64,000 nucleotides of DNA from Sedimentisphaerales bacterium. GTDB lineage: Bacteria > Planctomycetota > Phycisphaerae > Sedimentisphaerales > SM23-30. Made by a program: the position numbers and the translations under genes. Every line of letters starts with the position of its first letter. Within the stretch, counting starts at the first letter, position 1. The notes under the pieces were generated by a model that saw only the letters and a list, made by a program, of their open reading frames with translations, was not told the origin of the DNA and made no database searches. The stretch covers positions 1 to 64,000 of the forward strand of contig JANQJS010000055.1 of the NCBI GenBank assembly GCA_028281535.1, in the 5' to 3' direction. This document shows, one piece after another, positions 2-48,857 of this stretch.

Positions 2-3000
2 ATCAACTGGGTGAGTGGTGAACTTCATTTTGATGCTTACCAGGGTCAGGCTGGTGGCGGCAGTTGCGGCAGTGGTATCGCTCCTCCGACACCTGATCCA
101 GCGACCTTGGCTTCAGCGCCTGCAGCAACCTCTAGCAGTGTGATTGCCATGACGGCAACGACGGGCAGCGATGCCAGTGGTCCAGTTGAATACTTATTTG
201 AAGAATCATCCGGTAATGCCGGTGGAACCAGCAGTAGCTGGCAGACTTCAACGAGTTATTCAGATACGGGGCTAACAGGCGGAACGGAATATACCTACAG
301 TGTCCAAATGCGTGACAGTGTTGGTAACACCACTGCCGTATCCGCTCGCTTCTCGGCGACCACAACCGGTGGTGGAGATGTTACGCCTCCGACTCCTAAT
401 CCAGCGACGTTTGCAGCAGCACCAAGTGCCGATAGCGATACCGCGATTAGTATGACGGCGACGACAGCAAGCGATCCAAGCTCACCTGTTGAATATAACT
501 TTGATAATGTCAGCGGTGGTGCCGGTGGCACCGATAGTGGCTGGCAAACCTCAACCAGTTACACTGATCTTGGTTTGAGTGCGTCAACCCAATACTGTTA
601 TACCGTTCAGTCGCGTGATAGCGTGGGTAACACGGGTACGGCTTCGGCTCAATCTTGTGCAACGACACAAGCGGCTCCGGATACCACACCGCCAACCCCG
701 AACCCAGCGACGTTTGCATCCGCTCCAGCGGCTAGCAGTGATACCGTTATTAATATGACAGCCACTACCGCTAGTGATCCGTCTGGTCCAGTGGAATATA
801 ACTTTAATCATGTGAGCGGTACACCTGGTGGTACCGATAGTGGCTGGCAAACGTCAACAAGCTATACGGACTCCGGTTTGGCTGGCAGTACGCAATACTG
901 CTACACGGTTCAGTCACGTGATAGTGTCGGTAATACAGGTACCGCATCGGCTCAATCTTGTGCAACAACGCAAGCGACGCCTGATACGACACCACCGACT
1001 CCGAACCCCGCCACGTTTGCAGCTGCTCCGGCTTCAACCGGAACGAGTTCAATTGCGATGACGGCAACGACTGGCTCTGATCCAAGTGGTCCTGTGGAGT
1101 ACTTCTTTACAGAAACCACCGCGAATCCGGGCGGTAGTAACAGTACCTGGCAAACCTCGACCAGCTACACGGATACGTTGCTCAGTCCAAGTACGCAATA
1201 TTGTTACACTGTTACATCGCGTGACAGTGTGGGTAATACCGGTAGTAGTTCAGCACAATCCTGTGCAACAACTGATGCTTTACCAGATATCACTCCGCCA
1301 ACGCCGAATCCAGCCACGTTTGCTTCAGTACCAAGTGCCGATAGCGATACCGCGATTAGCATGACGGCCACCACAGCGTCTGATCCATCGGGTCCAGTTG
1401 AATACAGCTTTGATGAAACGACTGCAGGTCCGGGTGCAACCGATAGTGGTTGGCAAACCTCAACCAGTTATACCGACAGTGGTTTAACCGCAAATACGCA
1501 ATATTGTTACACGGTTCAATCACGCGATAGTGTCGGTAATACCGGTACCGCATCATCTGCAGCTTGTGCTACCACACAAGATGTACCGAGTGATGTGTCG
1601 CTATTGACTGCTTGGGTGACAGGTACCACGCACGCAGATCCGGCGGGTAGCAATCGCGCTTTGGTCTTTACCGTGCATGCCGAAGATGATAACACCAATA
1701 TGAATGCCTCGGTCACCTATGGCGGTCAAGCCATGACCAAAGTCGTTGAACAAAATGTCGGTACTGGCTATCGAGCCTACACAGCTGCGTTTATTCTCAA
1801 TGATGCCGGTATTGCCGCCGCTTCGAATAGCACGTTCAATGTTACCTGGGCACAAACACCTTCGCGTACACCTGGTTTTGCCAGTGTCTTCCTAGCCGGT
1901 GTCGATCAGGCATCCTTAACCGGGGCGAGCAGCGGTAACGGTAATACATCAACCGCAACCGTTTCTTCGGCTGCGTTGACAACGGGTAGCGGTGACCTGG
2001 TGATTATTTCCGGTACTTGTGGTAACACAGGATCCTACACGGTAAATAATGGATTCACGGAAGGAACCGAAGTAACAGTCACCTCTGGTGATGGTGTAGC
2101 TGGTCATAAACTTGCAACCGGTGTGAATGAAACCCCGAGCTTGACGCATAGCAATGCCAACCGTCAAGTGGTCGTTGGTTTTGTTGTCAATGCCGGCGGC
2201 AGTGGCGGTGGCCCTGATACGACACCTCCGACACCGAATCCAGCAACGTTTTCTTCGGCTCCTGCGGCCAGCAGTGATACGGTTATTAATATGACCGCAA
2301 CCACAGCGAGCGATCCGTCCGGTCCGGTGGAATACAACTTTGATCAAACGCCCGCTGTTGGTGGTGGTACGGATAGTGGATGGCAAACCTCAACCAGTTA
2401 CACAGATATTGGTTTGAGTGCGTCAACGCAATACTGTTACACTGTTCAGTCGCGTGATAGTGTGGGTAACACAGGGTCAGCTTCAGCTGGATCTTGTGCC
2501 ACAACTCAAGCAGCGCCAGACACGACACCTCCGACGCCGAACCCGGCAACGTTTGCTTCAGCGCCAAGTGCGGATAGCTCGAGTGCTATTAGCATGACAG
2601 CAACGACGGCAAGCGATCCATCGGGACCTGTGGAATACAACTTTGCTAATACGAGTGGCGGCACCGGTGGTACGAGCAGTGGTTGGCAGACTTCTACCAG
2701 TTACACCGATACCGGGCTGCAGGCTTCTACATCGTATTGTTATACGGTTCAATCCCGTGATAGTGTTGGTAATACCGGTACGGCTTCATCTGCGGCTTGT
2801 GCCACCACACAAGCTGGCGGCGGATGCGGTAGTGGGCAACCATTCACGAACTTCTTAGGTGCCGGTAATACCACAGATATTACTGTTACGCAGAGTAGTG
2901 TGGATGATACGTCGACAGGCGTCAAAACGATCGATGGCAGTGGTCTTAGTGGCAATAACCATGGCACGAGTGAATTCGATGCCTGGCAGAGTCCATCAAC

Positions 3001-4315: not shown

Positions 4316-5773
4316 ATGGCGGAGACGTTGGAAAAATTAGACGATTTGGTATCGCTGTGCAAGCGGCGTGGATTTATTTTTCAAAGTAGCGAAATTTATG
4401 GCGGCCTGGCTAGCTGCTACGACTACGGACCGCTCGGTGCCGAACTCAAACGTAACGTCAAAAACGCCTGGTGGAAATCCGTCGTCCAAATGCGTGACGA
4501 TATGGTCGGTTTGGATTGTAGCATTCTTATGCACCCACTCGTCTGGAAAGCCTCTGGCCACGTCGATAAATTTGCCGACCTGATCACGGAATGTAAAAAG
4601 TGTAATTCGCGATTCCGTGCCGATCATTTGGCTGATGAGAATGGCAACACGATGGAAGGGGCCAGTAAAGCGGAGCATCTCAAAGATAAAATTTGTCCAC
4701 ATCCCAAATGTAAGTGTGTGGGTGACTTTACTGATCCAATGCCATTCAGGCTCATGTTCGAAACGCAAATGGGCGCCAACGCCGATGATTCAATGACGGT
4801 TTATCTTCGACCTGAAACCGCCCAAGGTATTTTTGCCAATTATAAAAATGTCTTGGATTCAACCCGAATGAAAGTACCTTTTGGTATCGCTCAGATTGGT
4901 AAAAGTTTTCGTAATGAAGTGACGACCAAAGCCTTTATTTTCCGTACCCGTGAATTTGAGCAAATGGAAATCGAATTTTTCTGCGAACCAGGAACGGACG
5001 AGCAGTGGTACGAACATTGGAAAGAGCATCGTATGAAGTGGTATACCGATTTGGGTATCAATCCAGACAATCTTCGTATGCGTGATCATGCTTCGGATGA
5101 GTTGGCGCACTACGCCAAAGGGTGCGTCGATGTGGAATACAAATTCCCATTTGGTCAAGGCGACTGGCAGGAGCTGGAAGGCATTGCCAACCGAACCGAT
5201 TATGATCTGCGTCGCCATCAATGTGGTATGCGTAGCACCACAAGCTGGTTTGAAAATAATCGCGATACCGAAAAAACTACGATTGCTACGGAAAATGAAG
5301 ATTATCACAAAGGCCCGCTTAGCTTTTTTGATGATCAAGCAAAGAAGCGTTATATTCCATATGTCATCGAACCATCCGCCGGTGCGGATCGAGGTACATT
5401 GGCATTCTTAGTAGATGCCTATGCCGTAGAGCAATTGGAAAAAGACACGCGTAGTGTCTTTCGTTTTCATCCTAAACTGGCACCCGTAAAAGTCGCTGTC
5501 TTTCCTCTGGTGAAAAAAGATGGCATGCCAGAAAAAGCCAAAGAAATCTACGATGATCTGAAACCGCATTTTAATTGTAATTTTGACGTCAAAGGTGCCG
5601 TCGGTCGTCGCTACCGTCGCCAGGACGAAATCGGAACCCCATTCTGCGTTACAGTCGACGGCCAAACCGCCGAAGACCAAACCGTCACCGTACGTGAACG
5701 CGACAGCATGGAGCAAACCAGAATCTCAGTTGATAAAGTAAAAAGTTATTTACGCGAAAAATTAGATATGTAA
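4316..5773 (+). CDS. glyS: Glycine--tRNA ligase, single-chain dimeric type
   Basis: Charges tRNA-Gly with glycine in the cytoplasm. This is the one-subunit (eukaryote/archaeal-like) class II form of 485 residues, not the alpha/beta GlyQ/GlyS form. Visible features: the N-terminal YGGLASCYDYGPLG segment, a CxxC...CPHPKC zinc-like pair of motifs at about residues 95-140, VYLRPETAQGIF, motif 2 in GKSFRNEV, motif 3 in GADRGTLAF, and a C-terminal anticodon-binding domain from about residue 390 (KVAVFPLV...IGTPFCVTVD). The ATG follows AAAGGAA. asnS starts 21 bp after the stop, so the two synthetase genes probably form one transcript. Confidence 0.97.
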   Translation: MAETLEKLDDLVSLCKRRGFIFQSSEIYGGLASCYDYGPLGAELKRNVKNAWWKSVVQMRDDMVGLDCSILMHPLVWKASGHVDKFADLITECKKCNSRFRADHLADENGNTMEGASKAEHLKDKICPHPKCKCVGDFTDPMPFRLMFETQMGANADDSMTVYLRPETAQGIFANYKNVLDSTRMKVPFGIAQIGKSFRNEVTTKAFIFRTREFEQMEIEFFCEPGTDEQWYEHWKEHRMKWYTDLGINPDNLRMRDHASDELAHYAKGCVDVEYKFPFGQGDWQELEGIANRTDYDLRRHQCGMRSTTSWFENNRDTEKTTIATENEDYHKGPLSFFDDQAKKRYIPYVIEPSAGADRGTLAFLVDAYAVEQLEKDTRSVFRFHPKLAPVKVAVFPLVKKDGMPEKAKEIYDDLKPHFNCNFDVKGAVGRRYRRQDEIGTPFCVTVDGQTAEDQTVTVRERDSMEQTRISVDKVKSYLREKLDM

Positions 5774-26915: not shown

Positions 26916-28379
26916 ATGAAGCGTAAAATGAAAGCATCACACCGGAATTTCTTCGAGTCTGTAGCTCAGGCAGTTTATGTCAATCCCATGAGCCAGCTGC
27001 GAGAACCGCTTTATCAGAAAATCGCAGGAGAGCAACAGGTGGGTTCTGATAAAGAATTATTTGAAGCGGTGATGCGATCGGTCAGCTCACATATAGCCAT
27101 CTATGATGATCCACAATTGGCAAGGTTGTCAGATTTTGACGATGCGGATGTACCTTTGATGCGATATGTCTATCTTTTCGAGTGTTATAATACATTTATC
27201 TATCAATTTGATGAGCTGATTGAAAAAGAAAATAAACTCGGAGAATGTCAACAAGTCACATTCGCAGGTGATTTGATTAAGCGATTGAAACAACGCGGAT
27301 TTCAACCAGATGAAATTTCCTTTTGTATTTCCATGTTTTATCAGATACGGCGGGCATTTTATTTTATTGAACGCAGTTTGATTGGCCAAAGCCCCTGCAT
27401 GCAGAAATTGCGAATGGATCTTTGGAACAATATTTTTACCTTTGATATACGTTATTATGAAAAATTTCTTTGGAATCGTATGGAGGATTTTTCGACATTG
27501 TTGCTTGGGCCGACGGGATCAGGTAAAGGTGCGGCAGCGGCAGCCATCGGGCGCAGTGGCTATATTCCATTCGATGATAAGAAAAAGTGTTTCTCCGAAT
27601 GTTTTAAGCATAATTTCGTACCGATTAATTTGTCGGAATTTCCCGCCAGTCTTATTGAATCAGAATTATTTGGCCATAAAAAAGGTGCTTTTACAGGTGC
27701 CATTGAAGCTCATGATGGCGTTTTTGCCAAATGCAGCGAGCATGGCTCCATTTTTCTAGATGAAATTGGCGAAATTACTGAGCAGATACAAATCAAATTA
27801 TTGCGCGTACTTGAAGAACGGCAATATTCGCCGGTAGGAAGTTTTGATAAACGACGATTTAATGGACGAGTGATTGCTGCAACCCATCAGTCGGTCGACC
27901 AGCTTAGAGAAGATGGCCATTTTCGAGATGACTTTTTCTATCGGCTCTGTTCTGATGTTATTGTTATGCCTAGTCTGCACCAGCGGCTTGAGCAATGCCC
28001 CGAAGAGATGAACGACTTGTTGTCGTTAACTATTGAGCGAATTGTTGGCCATAAAAATGATGATTTGCTCGAGTTGGTAAGTCAGGCTATCCAAAAAAAT
28101 ATACCTGAAAATTATACTTGGCCTGGCAATGTGCGCGAGTTAGCACAATGTGTACGGCGCATCCTGCTCAAAAAAGAATATGAAGGTGACCAGGTCAAAA
28201 CCTCAAATGATCTGACAGGAGATCTGCAGCAGGGAATTCAAGCAGGTGATTTGACAGCCCAGTCTCTCATGGAAGGGTATTGCCGTTTACTATATGATCG
28301 CTGCGGTAATATTCAGGAAGTAGCGCGCCGAACCGGATTGGATCGGCGGACGGTTAAGAAATATTTACCCAGTTCTTAG
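26916..28379 (+). CDS. Sigma-54-dependent transcriptional activator without a receiver domain
   Basis: A 487-residue AAA+ bacterial enhancer-binding protein. The N-terminal 175 residues are helical and unrelated to receiver, GAF or PAS domains that I can recognise. The AAA+ core has Walker A GPTGSGKG (usually GESGTGKE), ESELFGHKKGAFTGA with the sigma-54-contacting GAFTGA loop, Walker B IFLDEIGE and DDFFYRL. The C-terminal Fis-type helix-turn-helix is GNIQEVARRTGLDRRTVKKYL-like. It should drive sigma-54 promoters such as the one at 45334-45349, though no link between them is shown. GTGGGGG lies about 12 nt before the ATG. Confidence 0.92.
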   Translation: MKRKMKASHRNFFESVAQAVYVNPMSQLREPLYQKIAGEQQVGSDKELFEAVMRSVSSHIAIYDDPQLARLSDFDDADVPLMRYVYLFECYNTFIYQFDELIEKENKLGECQQVTFAGDLIKRLKQRGFQPDEISFCISMFYQIRRAFYFIERSLIGQSPCMQKLRMDLWNNIFTFDIRYYEKFLWNRMEDFSTLLLGPTGSGKGAAAAAIGRSGYIPFDDKKKCFSECFKHNFVPINLSEFPASLIESELFGHKKGAFTGAIEAHDGVFAKCSEHGSIFLDEIGEITEQIQIKLLRVLEERQYSPVGSFDKRRFNGRVIAATHQSVDQLREDGHFRDDFFYRLCSDVIVMPSLHQRLEQCPEEMNDLLSLTIERIVGHKNDDLLELVSQAIQKNIPENYTWPGNVRELAQCVRRILLKKEYEGDQVKTSNDLTGDLQQGIQAGDLTAQSLMEGYCRLLYDRCGNIQEVARRTGLDRRTVKKYLPSS

Positions 28380-44538: not shown

Positions 44539-44653
44539 TTTTGCCTATTCTCCAATTGATTGATGACGCACCTATTTCAAGCCATAGCGTATAAGCTCAT
44601 ATCTTTATTCGTAATATTATATTCTTATTAGGGCTCTTGGTGCGCATAAAAAA

Positions 44654-44692
44654 ATGCTTACCAGTTCTCTGAGCAAACTGGCAAGCATTTAA
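44654..44692. terminator. Two-sided terminator
   Basis: ATGCTTACCAGTT (44654-44666) pairs with AACTGGCAAGCAT (44676-44688) with one mismatch; A-run before and TTT after. It can end the CheX transcript and the minus-strand small-gene transcript that converge here. Confidence 0.75.
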
Positions 44693-44818
44693 TAAAGGGG
44701 CAGATATTTTTTTCTATTTCATGGATCTCAGCAGAGCCAAATACTGTCCCGCGGAAAAAAAGTAATGAAAGGAAGTGGAGTATGTTGTATTGTTCATTAT
44801 ATTTAGTTCCTAAATATA

Positions 44819-45061
44819 TTAAGCGATCTTTCTATTAGATTTATTGATGTTATTCACAAATTCGGTTAATTTCTGGCAATTATTTCGCCAGCGACAGTTC
44901 AGTTCACCGCACTCAGGCAGGCTTCCAAAGCATTGAGCGTGATTCTCCAAATCTTGCAATGCCCAGACCAGATCAACATTACTCATCGTGCCAGTTTCAA
45001 TAGCCATTTGTACGGCGTAATGTTTGGTAGTCCTTTGATGACTGTCATTGATAGTTAACAT
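44819..45061 (-). CDS. Small four-cysteine protein, second gene of a sigma-54-driven pair
   Basis: An 80-residue protein. N-terminal HYAVQMAIETGTMSNVDLVWALQDLENH is helical; then CFGSLPECGELNCRWRNNC places four Cys within 19 residues, suggesting a zinc or Fe-S site or disulfides. No signal peptide is present, so a cytoplasmic metal site is more likely. I do not recognise a family. It begins 22 bp after the 57-residue gene on the same strand and would share its sigma-54 promoter. Confidence 0.6.
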   Translation of the reverse strand: MLTINDSHQRTTKHYAVQMAIETGTMSNVDLVWALQDLENHAQCFGSLPECGELNCRWRNNCQKLTEFVNNINKSNRKIA

Positions 45062-45083: not shown

Positions 45084-45257
45084 TTACGAGGCTCTTACGT
45101 GAGCAAGTTTTGTTTCCAGTCCAGATTGCCCATCCGTGGTCATGGATTGATCCAAGGCCTTCTTTAGGTAGATTTCGATCATTTTTTCTTTCGCTTGTCG
45201 ATTTAACTCGGACAAATGTTTTTGATTTTCTTTGTTATTTCGTTTCATGGCTTTCAT
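45084..45257 (-). CDS. 57-residue basic protein, first gene of a sigma-54-driven pair
   Basis: An ORF of 57 codons starting at ATG 45257, preceded by a strong AAAGGAG site 6 nt upstream. The protein is charged and helical (MKAMKRNNKENQKHLSEL..., middle KEKMIEIYLKKAL) and ends KLAHVRAS. No family is recognised. Strong support comes from the ribosome site, the sigma-54 promoter 77 bp upstream and the tight spacing to the 80-residue gene. A second in-frame ATG lies three codons later. Confidence 0.65.
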   Translation of the reverse strand: MKAMKRNNKENQKHLSELNRQAKEKMIEIYLKKALDQSMTTDGQSGLETKLAHVRAS

Positions 45258-45333
45258 GATCAACTCCTTTCTACATCTCAGGATTCTTGGGTTTGTTTAC
45301 GTTATTAACTTTTTTGCTTCTGAAAAGATATAT

Positions 45334-45349
45334 TGCAAGTGGCGTGCCA
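45334..45349 (-). promoter_or_regulatory. Sigma-54 (RpoN) promoter for the small-gene pair
   Basis: On the minus strand TGGCACG (-24), four bases, TTGCA (-12): a complete match to the RpoN core with correct spacing. Predicted start is near 45322, giving a leader of about 65 nt to the 57-residue gene. An enhancer site for an activator is not identified. Confidence 0.8.
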
Positions 45350-45608: not shown

Positions 45609-47030
45609 ATGGAACGCAGCAAGCTGATAAAATTATTTTTTGCCTTAACCGCCTTTTTTGTGGTGTTATTTTTGCCACTGGAATCCATACCGATCAATTC
45701 CATCACATTATTGCAACAGCGCGTCCTGGCGATATTTGTATTAGCTGTGTTGCTATGGGTTTGGGAGCCGATACCTATTTTTTCAACATCGGTTTTGATT
45801 ATTTTTTTAGAGCTATTGATGATCTCGGATAAGGGGTTATTTTTGTTTCGGACTCATTCCGATGCTGAAACATTTGGTCAGTTGATAAATTATAAATCGA
45901 TCATGGGAACCTTTGCTTCTCCGATCATTTTGTTATTTTTGGGTGGTTACTTTTTAGCGATGTCTGCCACTAAATATAAATTGGATCAAAACCTGGCACG
46001 CGTTTTATTGCGACCATTTGGTAATAATCCTAAAAATGTGATGTTTGGGTTGATGGTCATTACAGCCATTTTCTCAATGTTCATGAGTAATACGGCAACC
46101 ACGGCGATGATGCTGGCGATTCTAACTCCAGTGTTAGCTAAATTAGATGCCACAGATTTAGGCCGAAAAGCATTTGTGCTAGCGATTCCCTTTGCTGCAA
46201 ATGTGGGTGGTTTAGGCACGCCCATTGGTACGCCACCTAATGCGGTTGCGTTGAAATATCTCACAGGCGACATTGCGGTCTCATTTGGTGGTTGGATGCT
46301 GTTTGGAGTACCTTACATGATCATCATGTTGATTTTTGTTTGGTTTTTATTACTTAAAATTTATCCTGTTGCTTCAAAACAGTTGGATATACAGATTAAG
46401 GGAAAATTCTTAAAGCACTGGAAGGCATTAACGGTCTATGTTACTTTTGCATTAACGGTTGTACTATGGTTAACTGGAAAGCTGCATGGCATGAATTCTT
46501 ATGTTGTTGCAATGCTACCTGTCACGGTGTTTTCTGTTACCGGAATCATTACGGTTGCGGATTTAAAAACTTTGAGTTGGGATGTATTATGGCTGGTTTC
46601 GGGTGGTATTGCATTAGGGCTGGCGATGGAAAAAACGGGTTTGAGCGTCAATCTGATTGAAAGTATTCCATTTTCCAATTTTTCCCCTTATATTATTATT
46701 GCGTCCGCAACCGTATTGGCGGTATTGATGGCGACCTTCATGTCAAACACGGCGACAGCGAACTTATTGATGCCTATTATGGCAGCTTTAGGTGTAAGCT
46801 TGTCTTCTCTAGAGCCTTTGGGTGGTGTCAAAATGCTCATTATTGGTGTGGCATTTTCTTCTTCCTTGGCCATGTGTTTGCCGGTGAGTACGCCACCGAA
46901 TGCTATGGCTCACGCGACTGGTGCGATTGAAAGTCGTGATATGGTAAAACCTGGGATGATTATTGGGGGTGTTGGTTTAACACTTGTTTATGGTTTGTTG
47001 TTTATCTTGAAAAAGGTGCAGTTCTTTTGA
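45609..47030 (+). CDS. SLC13/DASS-family dicarboxylate transporter
   Basis: A 473-residue membrane symporter of the divalent-anion:sodium family, moving dicarboxylates such as succinate or malate, or sulfate-like anions. It has about 11 membrane spans and both family SNT motifs (MSNTATTAM at about residue 160 and MSNTATANL at about 380), each followed by a TPPNA-type loop (GTPIGTPPNA and VSTPPNAMA). It starts an operon with a histidine kinase and a receiver; its TGA overlaps the TTG of the kinase gene. Confidence 0.92.
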   Translation: MERSKLIKLFFALTAFFVVLFLPLESIPINSITLLQQRVLAIFVLAVLLWVWEPIPIFSTSVLIIFLELLMISDKGLFLFRTHSDAETFGQLINYKSIMGTFASPIILLFLGGYFLAMSATKYKLDQNLARVLLRPFGNNPKNVMFGLMVITAIFSMFMSNTATTAMMLAILTPVLAKLDATDLGRKAFVLAIPFAANVGGLGTPIGTPPNAVALKYLTGDIAVSFGGWMLFGVPYMIIMLIFVWFLLLKIYPVASKQLDIQIKGKFLKHWKALTVYVTFALTVVLWLTGKLHGMNSYVVAMLPVTVFSVTGIITVADLKTLSWDVLWLVSGGIALGLAMEKTGLSVNLIESIPFSNFSPYIIIASATVLAVLMATFMSNTATANLLMPIMAALGVSLSSLEPLGGVKMLIIGVAFSSSLAMCLPVSTPPNAMAHATGAIESRDMVKPGMIIGGVGLTLVYGLLFILKKVQFF

Positions 47031-48382
47031 CATCACACAATTCAGAAAAGAGTCAGCAGTGGTTTGTTAAAACCTATTTCAGCGATGAGAAAAAAATGAT
47101 TCGTTTGAAAGAGGGAGAAACGTTACTTGAAAAAGATCATAGAAATGACCGTTTGTTTTACCTGCATGATGGTGTCATGATTGGCTACGATGGTGAACTT
47201 GATATTCATGGCATGCCCGCGGAAAAATTACTATGCGAGCAAGGCGGATTCATAGGGCTACACAGCTTTTTTTCGAAACGAGCTGAGTCTATTTTTACTA
47301 TCGTGGCAAAAAACGATTGTTTGGTAAGTTACATTGATCGCGATCAACCAGTGATAACTGAAGTTGGTGCAACATCACTTGCCGAGCAATTTATGCCATT
47401 GGTGATTGAGCGATTGGCCTATCGCCAGGAAGTCATGTGCGAAACCATACGTCAGCAAGAGAAAGCGTCTGCCCAGGTTCAGGAGTATCAGCGGCTAGCG
47501 ACATTAGGTCAACTGTCTGCGGGGGTGGCACATGAATTAAATAATGCTCTGGCGGTTATTACGCGTGGAAGTGAGTGGCTTTCGTTTATTGGTGAGAAAC
47601 TGATCAGTCGGCGTGGAGAACGAGAAAAAGAATATTATAGGCTCGGTTTGGAAAAAGGCCATGCCGTTTCCAGTCGTGATGCCAGAAAACAGAAAAAACT
47701 GCTCAAAGAAAAATATTCCATTCATGAGCGTGATGCTCATGCTATCGCTACGATGGGGCTTACTGAGATCGATGATGATTTGGTAGAAAAATTGTCAGAG
47801 TATATTAAGGTATGGGAAATGGGAACGACGTTGCATGATTTGCGATTGGCTTCGGAGCATTGTGAACATGTGGTTTACTCGATGAAAACATTGGGTGCGA
47901 AACATGAATCAATGGAAGATCAAGTTCGCGTGAATGATTCAATTCGCCAAGCCTATATTTTAGTCGAGAATAAATTGCGAGCGGTGAAGGTCGAAATGGA
48001 TCTCCAGGCTGAAGGTACCATTCGAGGTAATCGAGGTGGATTGATTCAGATTTGGAGCAATTTGATGAAGAATGCATTGGAGGCATGTCAAGAAGATTGT
48101 AGCGATATCCCAGAAATTAAAATCATTAGCCAGGAAATTGATGAGCAAATCGAAGTTGCTATTATTGATAATGGTCCGGGGATACCGTCGGATCTATTGC
48201 CTAAAATCTTCCAACCAAATGTCACAACCAAAAAGAAAGGCTTGTCATTTGGTTTAGGATTAGGATTGACATTAGTGCAACGATTAATCGATGAACATTT
48301 GGGGCAAATTGAGGTGGATAGCCAACCCGGCAAAACGATCTTTAAGGTTCGTTTTCCCAAGACAGGAGTGAGTGATGAGTAA
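47027..48382 (+). CDS. Histidine kinase with cyclic-nucleotide-type sensor domain
   Basis: A 451-residue soluble sensor kinase. The N-terminal 130 residues resemble a cNMP-binding/CRP-type beta-barrel (KEGETLLEKDHRNDRLFYLHDGVMIGY). The H-box is LATLGQLSAGVAHELNNALAVI, with the phospho-His in AHELNN. An unusual charged insertion of about 80 residues splits the dimerisation domain (about 190-270). N, G1 and G2 boxes follow (NLMKNALEA, DNGPGIP, FGLGLGLTLVQ). The start is a TTG overlapping the transporter stop, with AAGGTG 8 nt upstream. It is coupled to the receiver gene. Confidence 0.88.
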   Translation: MTSHNSEKSQQWFVKTYFSDEKKMIRLKEGETLLEKDHRNDRLFYLHDGVMIGYDGELDIHGMPAEKLLCEQGGFIGLHSFFSKRAESIFTIVAKNDCLVSYIDRDQPVITEVGATSLAEQFMPLVIERLAYRQEVMCETIRQQEKASAQVQEYQRLATLGQLSAGVAHELNNALAVITRGSEWLSFIGEKLISRRGEREKEYYRLGLEKGHAVSSRDARKQKKLLKEKYSIHERDAHAIATMGLTEIDDDLVEKLSEYIKVWEMGTTLHDLRLASEHCEHVVYSMKTLGAKHESMEDQVRVNDSIRQAYILVENKLRAVKVEMDLQAEGTIRGNRGGLIQIWSNLMKNALEACQEDCSDIPEIKIISQEIDEQIEVAIIDNGPGIPSDLLPKIFQPNVTTKKKGLSFGLGLGLTLVQRLIDEHLGQIEVDSQPGKTIFKVRFPKTGVSDE

Positions 48383-48857
48383 GCCAATTATTATGTGTTT
48401 GGATGATCAGCGTGAAGTCCTTTCTGCATTGATGAAAGATCTGGAGGAGTTTGTCGATGCATTTGAAGTGATTGATTGTGAATCTGCTCAGGAAGCCTTG
48501 GAAGAACTAGAGACAATTGAGGATGAAGATGGCAATGTGCTTCTATTTGTTTGTGATCATATCATGCCCGAAAAAACAGGAGTAGAATTTTTATCTGAAT
48601 TGCGAGAAGAAAGTCGTTTTGAAACGGCACGGAAAATACTATTGACTGGATTAGCCACACATGAAGACACCATTGATGCCATTAATCGCGGTGATATCAA
48701 TTTTTACATTTCAAAACCGTGGAAGCAAGACAATTTGTTGAAAGTGATTCGCCAGCAGTTGACGCATGCACTGATTGATTCTGGCCAAGATCATACGCCC
48801 TACATGCAATGGCTTGATCAGGAAACACTCTATAAAATTCTTAGTAAACGTGTTTGA
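48375..48857 (+). CDS. Response regulator receiver protein
   Basis: A 160-residue receiver: CLDD acidic pair, phospho-Asp in FVCDHIMPEKTG, Thr in LLTGLA and Lys in SKPWK. The last about 35 residues are an extension without an output domain. ATG 48375 (AGGAG 6 nt upstream) is preferred over GTG 48372. It overlaps the kinase gene, so it is its probable partner. Confidence 0.88.
   Translation: MSKPIIMCLDDQREVLSALMKDLEEFVDAFEVIDCESAQEALEELETIEDEDGNVLLFVCDHIMPEKTGVEFLSELREESRFETARKILLTGLATHEDTIDAINRGDINFYISKPWKQDNLLKVIRQQLTHALIDSGQDHTPYMQWLDQETLYKILSKRV

Follow-up and report, generated by a model that had tools for sequence, protein, structure and literature searches.

A probable sigma-54 mini-operon with lineage-specific content in a Sedimentisphaerales genome

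In a Sedimentisphaerales bacterium (assembly GCA_028281535.1, contig JANQJS010000055.1), a consensus sigma-54 promoter element stands in a gene gap ahead of two very small genes, which raises the question of whether the element is a genuine activator-dependent switch and, if so, what it controls. The window analysed here is the stretch from position 1 to 64,000 of that contig. The preferred reading, to which a probability of roughly 0.6 is assigned, is that of a lineage-specific, strictly activator-dependent mini-operon making an orphan 57-aa protein together with a duplicated 80-aa protein.

The element, TGGCACGCCACTTGCA (45334-45349, minus strand), meets TGGCAC-N5-TTGCW exactly, including the GG-N10-GC spacing found in sigma-54 promoters, and its predicted +1 at about 45323 agrees with the start at 45322 proposed in an earlier, sequence-only reading of the locus. 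Within the window it is the sole exact match to TGGCACGN4TTGC. Pattern searches of the 4.44-Mb genome returned 7 exact TGGCACGN4TTGCW sites, compared with 0.65 (zero-order) or 1.5 (first-order) expected from the window's composition, and 48 sites with at most one mismatch, compared with 15 for a reversed-pattern control. The sigma-54 consensus appears to be used in this genome, which encodes RpoN, because other exact sites stand 48-65 bp upstream of hsp20, dnaK and clpB. Given the exact consensus and the excess of sites over expectation, the promoter that the sequence-only reading had proposed is graded as probable. No activator site was recognised in the approximately 260 bp upstream of the element, either as a known dyad type (NifA-type TGT-N10-ACA and NtrC-like GCAC dyads were absent) or as a shared motif scoring above shuffles, and the inverted repeats found there are short and AT-rich. 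Since activator sites vary with the activator, a site of another type may still be present at the mini-operon. Positions 45609-48857 of the window hold a divergent cluster encoding an SLC13/CitMHS-type transporter, a sensor kinase with a cNMP-binding-like domain and a response regulator.

On the minus strand, the element is followed by a 57-codon ORF (45084-45257), whose Shine-Dalgarno sequence AAAGGAG (45264-45270) lies 6 nt before the ATG, and, after a 22-bp gap, by an 80-codon ORF (44819-45061). The site, its spacing, both ORFs and the gap match the sequence exactly as had been described, while the interval originally given for the locus (45084-45349) omits the 80-codon gene (45061-44819). 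A local codon-usage model, trained on 35 long ORFs from the window, gives the 57-codon ORF 0.27 bits per codon, where real 57-codon pieces have a median of 0.28 and the 95th percentile for spurious ORFs is 0.156. The value for the 80-codon ORF, 0.119, falls in the lowest part of the range of real genes but exceeds that of most spurious ORFs, and homologues confirm this gene. The 57-aa protein has no convincing relative: neither 40 close relatives nor 294 Planctomycetota genomes yielded homologues beyond chance-level matches, and none was found beside other members of the 80-aa family. An AlphaFold2 (AF2) prediction gives it a long helix (residues 2-39) and a short one with a pLDDT of 85, which is weak evidence because it was made from a single sequence.

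Downstream, a scan called an intrinsic terminator at 44652-44690 on the minus strand, with a 16-bp stem and a T run (fold -21.7 kcal/mol, z -5.2), supporting the proposed two-gene transcription unit. The terminator had been described as two-sided; the hairpin and T run are present at 44690-44652, but the scan calls the minus strand only, leaving the second side unconfirmed. Rfam returned no match in the window at the gathering score, and its two matches at the terminator are sub-threshold and chance-like. Between the 80-codon gene and the terminator lies a possible, unproven 27-codon mini-ORF, MNNTTYSTSFHYFFSAGQYLALLRSMK (44714-44797, minus strand), proposed from an upstream AGGA and the sequence only. 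Overall, the locus is probably a sigma-54 mini-operon with lineage-specific content.

The sequence-only reading had recognised no family for either protein, which does not hold for the 80-aa protein: an alignment-based search found its family in 68 of 148 genomes from the order, the taxonomic family of the bacterium has homologues in 8 of its 12 other genomes, and the bacterium's own genome carries a paralogue. The family is widespread and uncurated, and its named relatives come from Sedimentisphaerales and Phycisphaerae metagenome-assembled genomes, which assigns the window to Planctomycetota. Seven positions are invariant in alignment A1 (A16, M26, Q36, C44, C51, C56 and C62), all of them present in the window protein. 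The AF2 model of this protein (pLDDT 82) consists of a helix at 6-23, a turn, a second helix at 29-38, a loop holding the four cysteines (Cys44, 51, 56 and 62) and a C-terminal helix. Of 19 members, six matched Rho_N; SAP was matched by three and LEM by one, and almost all of these scores stay under the cutoff. One sibling passes the Pfam Rho_N model (25.7 bits against a cutoff of 24.9), and the window protein itself has no Rho_N or SAP match in Pfam. The cysteine loop is not convincingly covered by any Pfam model, and none of the family members tested reaches an NCBIfam model. For the two window proteins, Pfam, NCBIfam, PHROGs and PADLOC gave nothing usable, the PDB gave nothing by sequence or by fold (the 80-aa model included), viral contigs held no relatives, and plasmids gave one weak match. 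The helix-extension-helix fold binds nucleic acid in several families. Judging from the alignment, the domain matches and the model, proteins of the 80-aa family probably combine a Rho_N/SAP-like helix pair with a loop whose four cysteines probably bind metal, and they seem capable of binding DNA or RNA.

The paralogue in the same genome (C60:128491) adjoins a gene for a membrane protein of about 300 aa, as do family members in four other genomes, and these membrane proteins are related by BLASTP. Because this pairing recurs in five genomes in total, the C60 copy is taken to be of the ancestral type and the window copy to be the extra one. Locus L021 provides a view of the ancestral-type arrangement, with the uncharacterised membrane protein and the four-cysteine gene side by side (4404-5366 and 5477-5725). 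The family tree gives the window copy, a second and fast-diverging paralogue, by far the longest branch (2.34) and does not place it with good support. At 20 plus 40 other family loci, where the nearest relatives available for comparison belong to other genera, no sigma-54 site as good as that at 45349-45334 was found, and the best sigma-54-like sites were about what so many tests would yield. Since these other family members lack a comparable site, promoter use gains no proof from conservation, and it is here that the case for a sigma-54 mini-operon is weakest. Conservation among relatives is therefore divided: the 80-aa protein is kept as a family, whereas relatives yielded neither the 57-aa ORF nor the pairing nor the promoter.

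The sequence-only reading had also suggested a stress module, and the genome's sigma-54 sites give this a specific form, in which the mini-operon would belong to the order's sigma-54 chaperone (heat-shock) regulon and share an activator with clpB and dnaK. With TGGCACGN4TTGCA followed by ATA, the mini-operon has a core promoter similar to those of the hsp20, dnaK and clpB genes, and chaperones are served by three of the genome's remaining exact sites. More broadly, intergenic sites lie 48-85 bp before the start codons of hsp20, dnaK, clpB, groEL (one mismatch) and others; further ones precede genes for a NarK-like transporter and an NMT1-type binding protein, and a carboxymuconolactone-decarboxylase-like gene beside an activator, some of these downstream proteins being named by recognition of their sequence. 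The pattern extends across the order: each of the 23 clpB genes of this genome and its relatives whose start was located automatically is preceded by a sigma-54-like site, and for 21 of them the upstream region also holds a dyad, TGYCA-N3-TGRCA, which often lies about 80 bp ahead of the -24 element. Of 26 dnaK loci, 24 show a strong sigma-54 site and 17 the exact dyad (clpB loci L111-L140, dnaK loci L178-L207; own-genome loci L097 at C45:82000-87500, L047 and L044). The dyad is a candidate activator-binding site of the sigma-54 chaperone regulon.

In this genome, the dyad stands upstream of hsp20, clpB/groEL and locus L055 and in near-exact form at dnaK, but the 400 bp examined at the mini-operon hold no match with up to two mismatches, nor was any other motif found in common with the chaperone promoters. 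The mini-operon therefore falls outside the chaperone regulon as tested by the dyad, membership is considered unlikely, and a stress module remains a guess, although the genome's chaperone genes do have sigma-54 sites. Two further sites were noted. The L055 site (C3:2574-2589) has two exact chaperone-type dyads with sequences identical to those in the groEL/clpB gap, and L055 encodes a 74-aa HTH-like protein (1201-1425, minus strand) followed on the same strand by small genes of 108 and 132 aa. At L046 (position 1501; C25:82132), an exact site, TGGCACGCTGGTTGCA, lies in a gap with no convincing downstream gene beyond, perhaps, a tiny ORF of some 30 codons, and it possibly serves a small RNA or a tiny protein.

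Chance offers another account, in which the two small genes would be read from a different promoter. About one exact site per genome is expected at random, one of the seven lies inside a gene (L049), and the mini-operon promoter shows no conservation. However, a random exact site would also have to be intergenic and correctly oriented, with an ORF starting 40-130 bp downstream, a combination put at a few per cent in a rough estimate based on 47 ORFs of at least 100 aa per 64 kb, and a scan found no sigma-70-like site on the minus strand. A chance match is accordingly judged quite improbable, and the sequence evidence suggests that 45349-45334 is very probably a genuine sigma-54 switch.

Nine proteins of the genome contain the sigma-54 activator domain in complete or almost complete form, with a GAFTGA-type loop (GSFTGA in one). 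The sequence-only reading had named one of them, encoded at 26916-28379, as the possible regulator, and this protein does carry GAFTGA and lies on the same contig as the mini-operon. However, it is present in just 10 of 40 relatives (the window's genome counted), and a sigma-54 site, CGGCACGTTCTTTGCA (26794-26779, minus strand), lies between it and its divergent neighbour; good opposite-strand sites recur just upstream of or at the called start of orthologues L144, L146, L147, L148 and L150. The activator's natural target is probably the neighbouring gene, because a site lies between the two and is repeated at orthologues, and the 26794-26779 promoter has no upstream motif in common with the mini-operon promoter above shuffles. 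Control of the mini-operon by this activator is therefore very unlikely. The divergent genes themselves differ among the orthologues, though similar sites recur. Among the nine activators, a response-regulator-type protein with the unusual GSFTGA loop (L080, G000:C55:36275-36775) is the only one with convincing relatives in each of the four genomes compared, at 43-71% identity, and is a candidate only for the chaperone-regulon activator.

A toxin-antitoxin-like or defence module, pairing a small helical protein with a small DNA-binding one, would suit two tiny adjacent genes of which one has a possible DNA-binding fold, but it is highly improbable, since neither protein matches PADLOC or PHROG, other four-cysteine family members are not accompanied by a relative of the 57-aa protein, and tight sigma-54 control is unusual for such pairs.

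In the preferred mini-operon reading, RNA polymerase carrying sigma-54 would wait at the -24/-12 element, a function suggested by its sequence, until one of the genome's AAA+ activators opened it. A transcript of about 670 nt would then run from approximately 45323 to the terminator at 44652 and would yield the orphan, putatively helical 57-aa protein and the 80-aa protein. The promoter would have captured a duplicate of the four-cysteine gene, so that a small, putatively nucleic-acid-binding protein would be made solely under one particular condition, with the 57-aa protein perhaps as its partner. In a more speculative and rather doubtful extension, the four-cysteine proteins would form an unrecognised Planctomycetota family of small metal- or redox-sensing nucleic-acid binders, and the duplicate, placed under a sigma-54 stress switch with a new 57-aa partner, would modulate transcription or the nucleoid in an inducible way.

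Combined, these results show that the sequence observation that drew attention to the locus is right and non-random, while its interpretation is partly right and its view of function is one we infer rather than observe. The locus would represent a case in which the gene for a small protein from a common, unnamed family was duplicated and the copy came under a strictly activator-dependent promoter. More useful than the mini-operon itself is that exact sigma-54 sites mark chaperone genes in this genome and its relatives, where the shared dyad offers a concrete handle on the activator running the order's sigma-54-dependent control of protein-folding stress. Sigma-54 control of Planctomycetota chaperone genes, less so in Phycisphaerae, has been predicted before (PMC12316311), and the main text of that paper holds nothing under "upstream activat"; as far as the searched literature goes, the chaperone dyad may be new.

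Compared with the sigma-54 promoters predicted in Planctomycetota, those of chaperones included (PMC12316311), the mini-operon shares the -24/-12 consensus with hsp20, dnaK, clpB and groEL of its own genome, but it contains no chaperone gene and no counterpart of the dyad found upstream at the chaperone promoters. Among known protein families, Rho_N (PF07498), SAP (PF02037) and LEM resemble the 80-aa family in the spacing and sequence of the helix pair; the window protein falls below detection, however, and the family differs in adding the invariant four-cysteine loop and in consisting of proteins of only about 60-160 aa without a Rho ATPase. The Nitrosomonas sp. sh817 plasmid protein WP_307934015.1 (annotated DUF2934) has a different N-terminal region, matches weakly (E 0.02) and, unlike the 80-codon gene, is encoded next to efflux genes, yet it likewise combines a similar helix pair with a four-cysteine segment, which ends in CKWRKEC.
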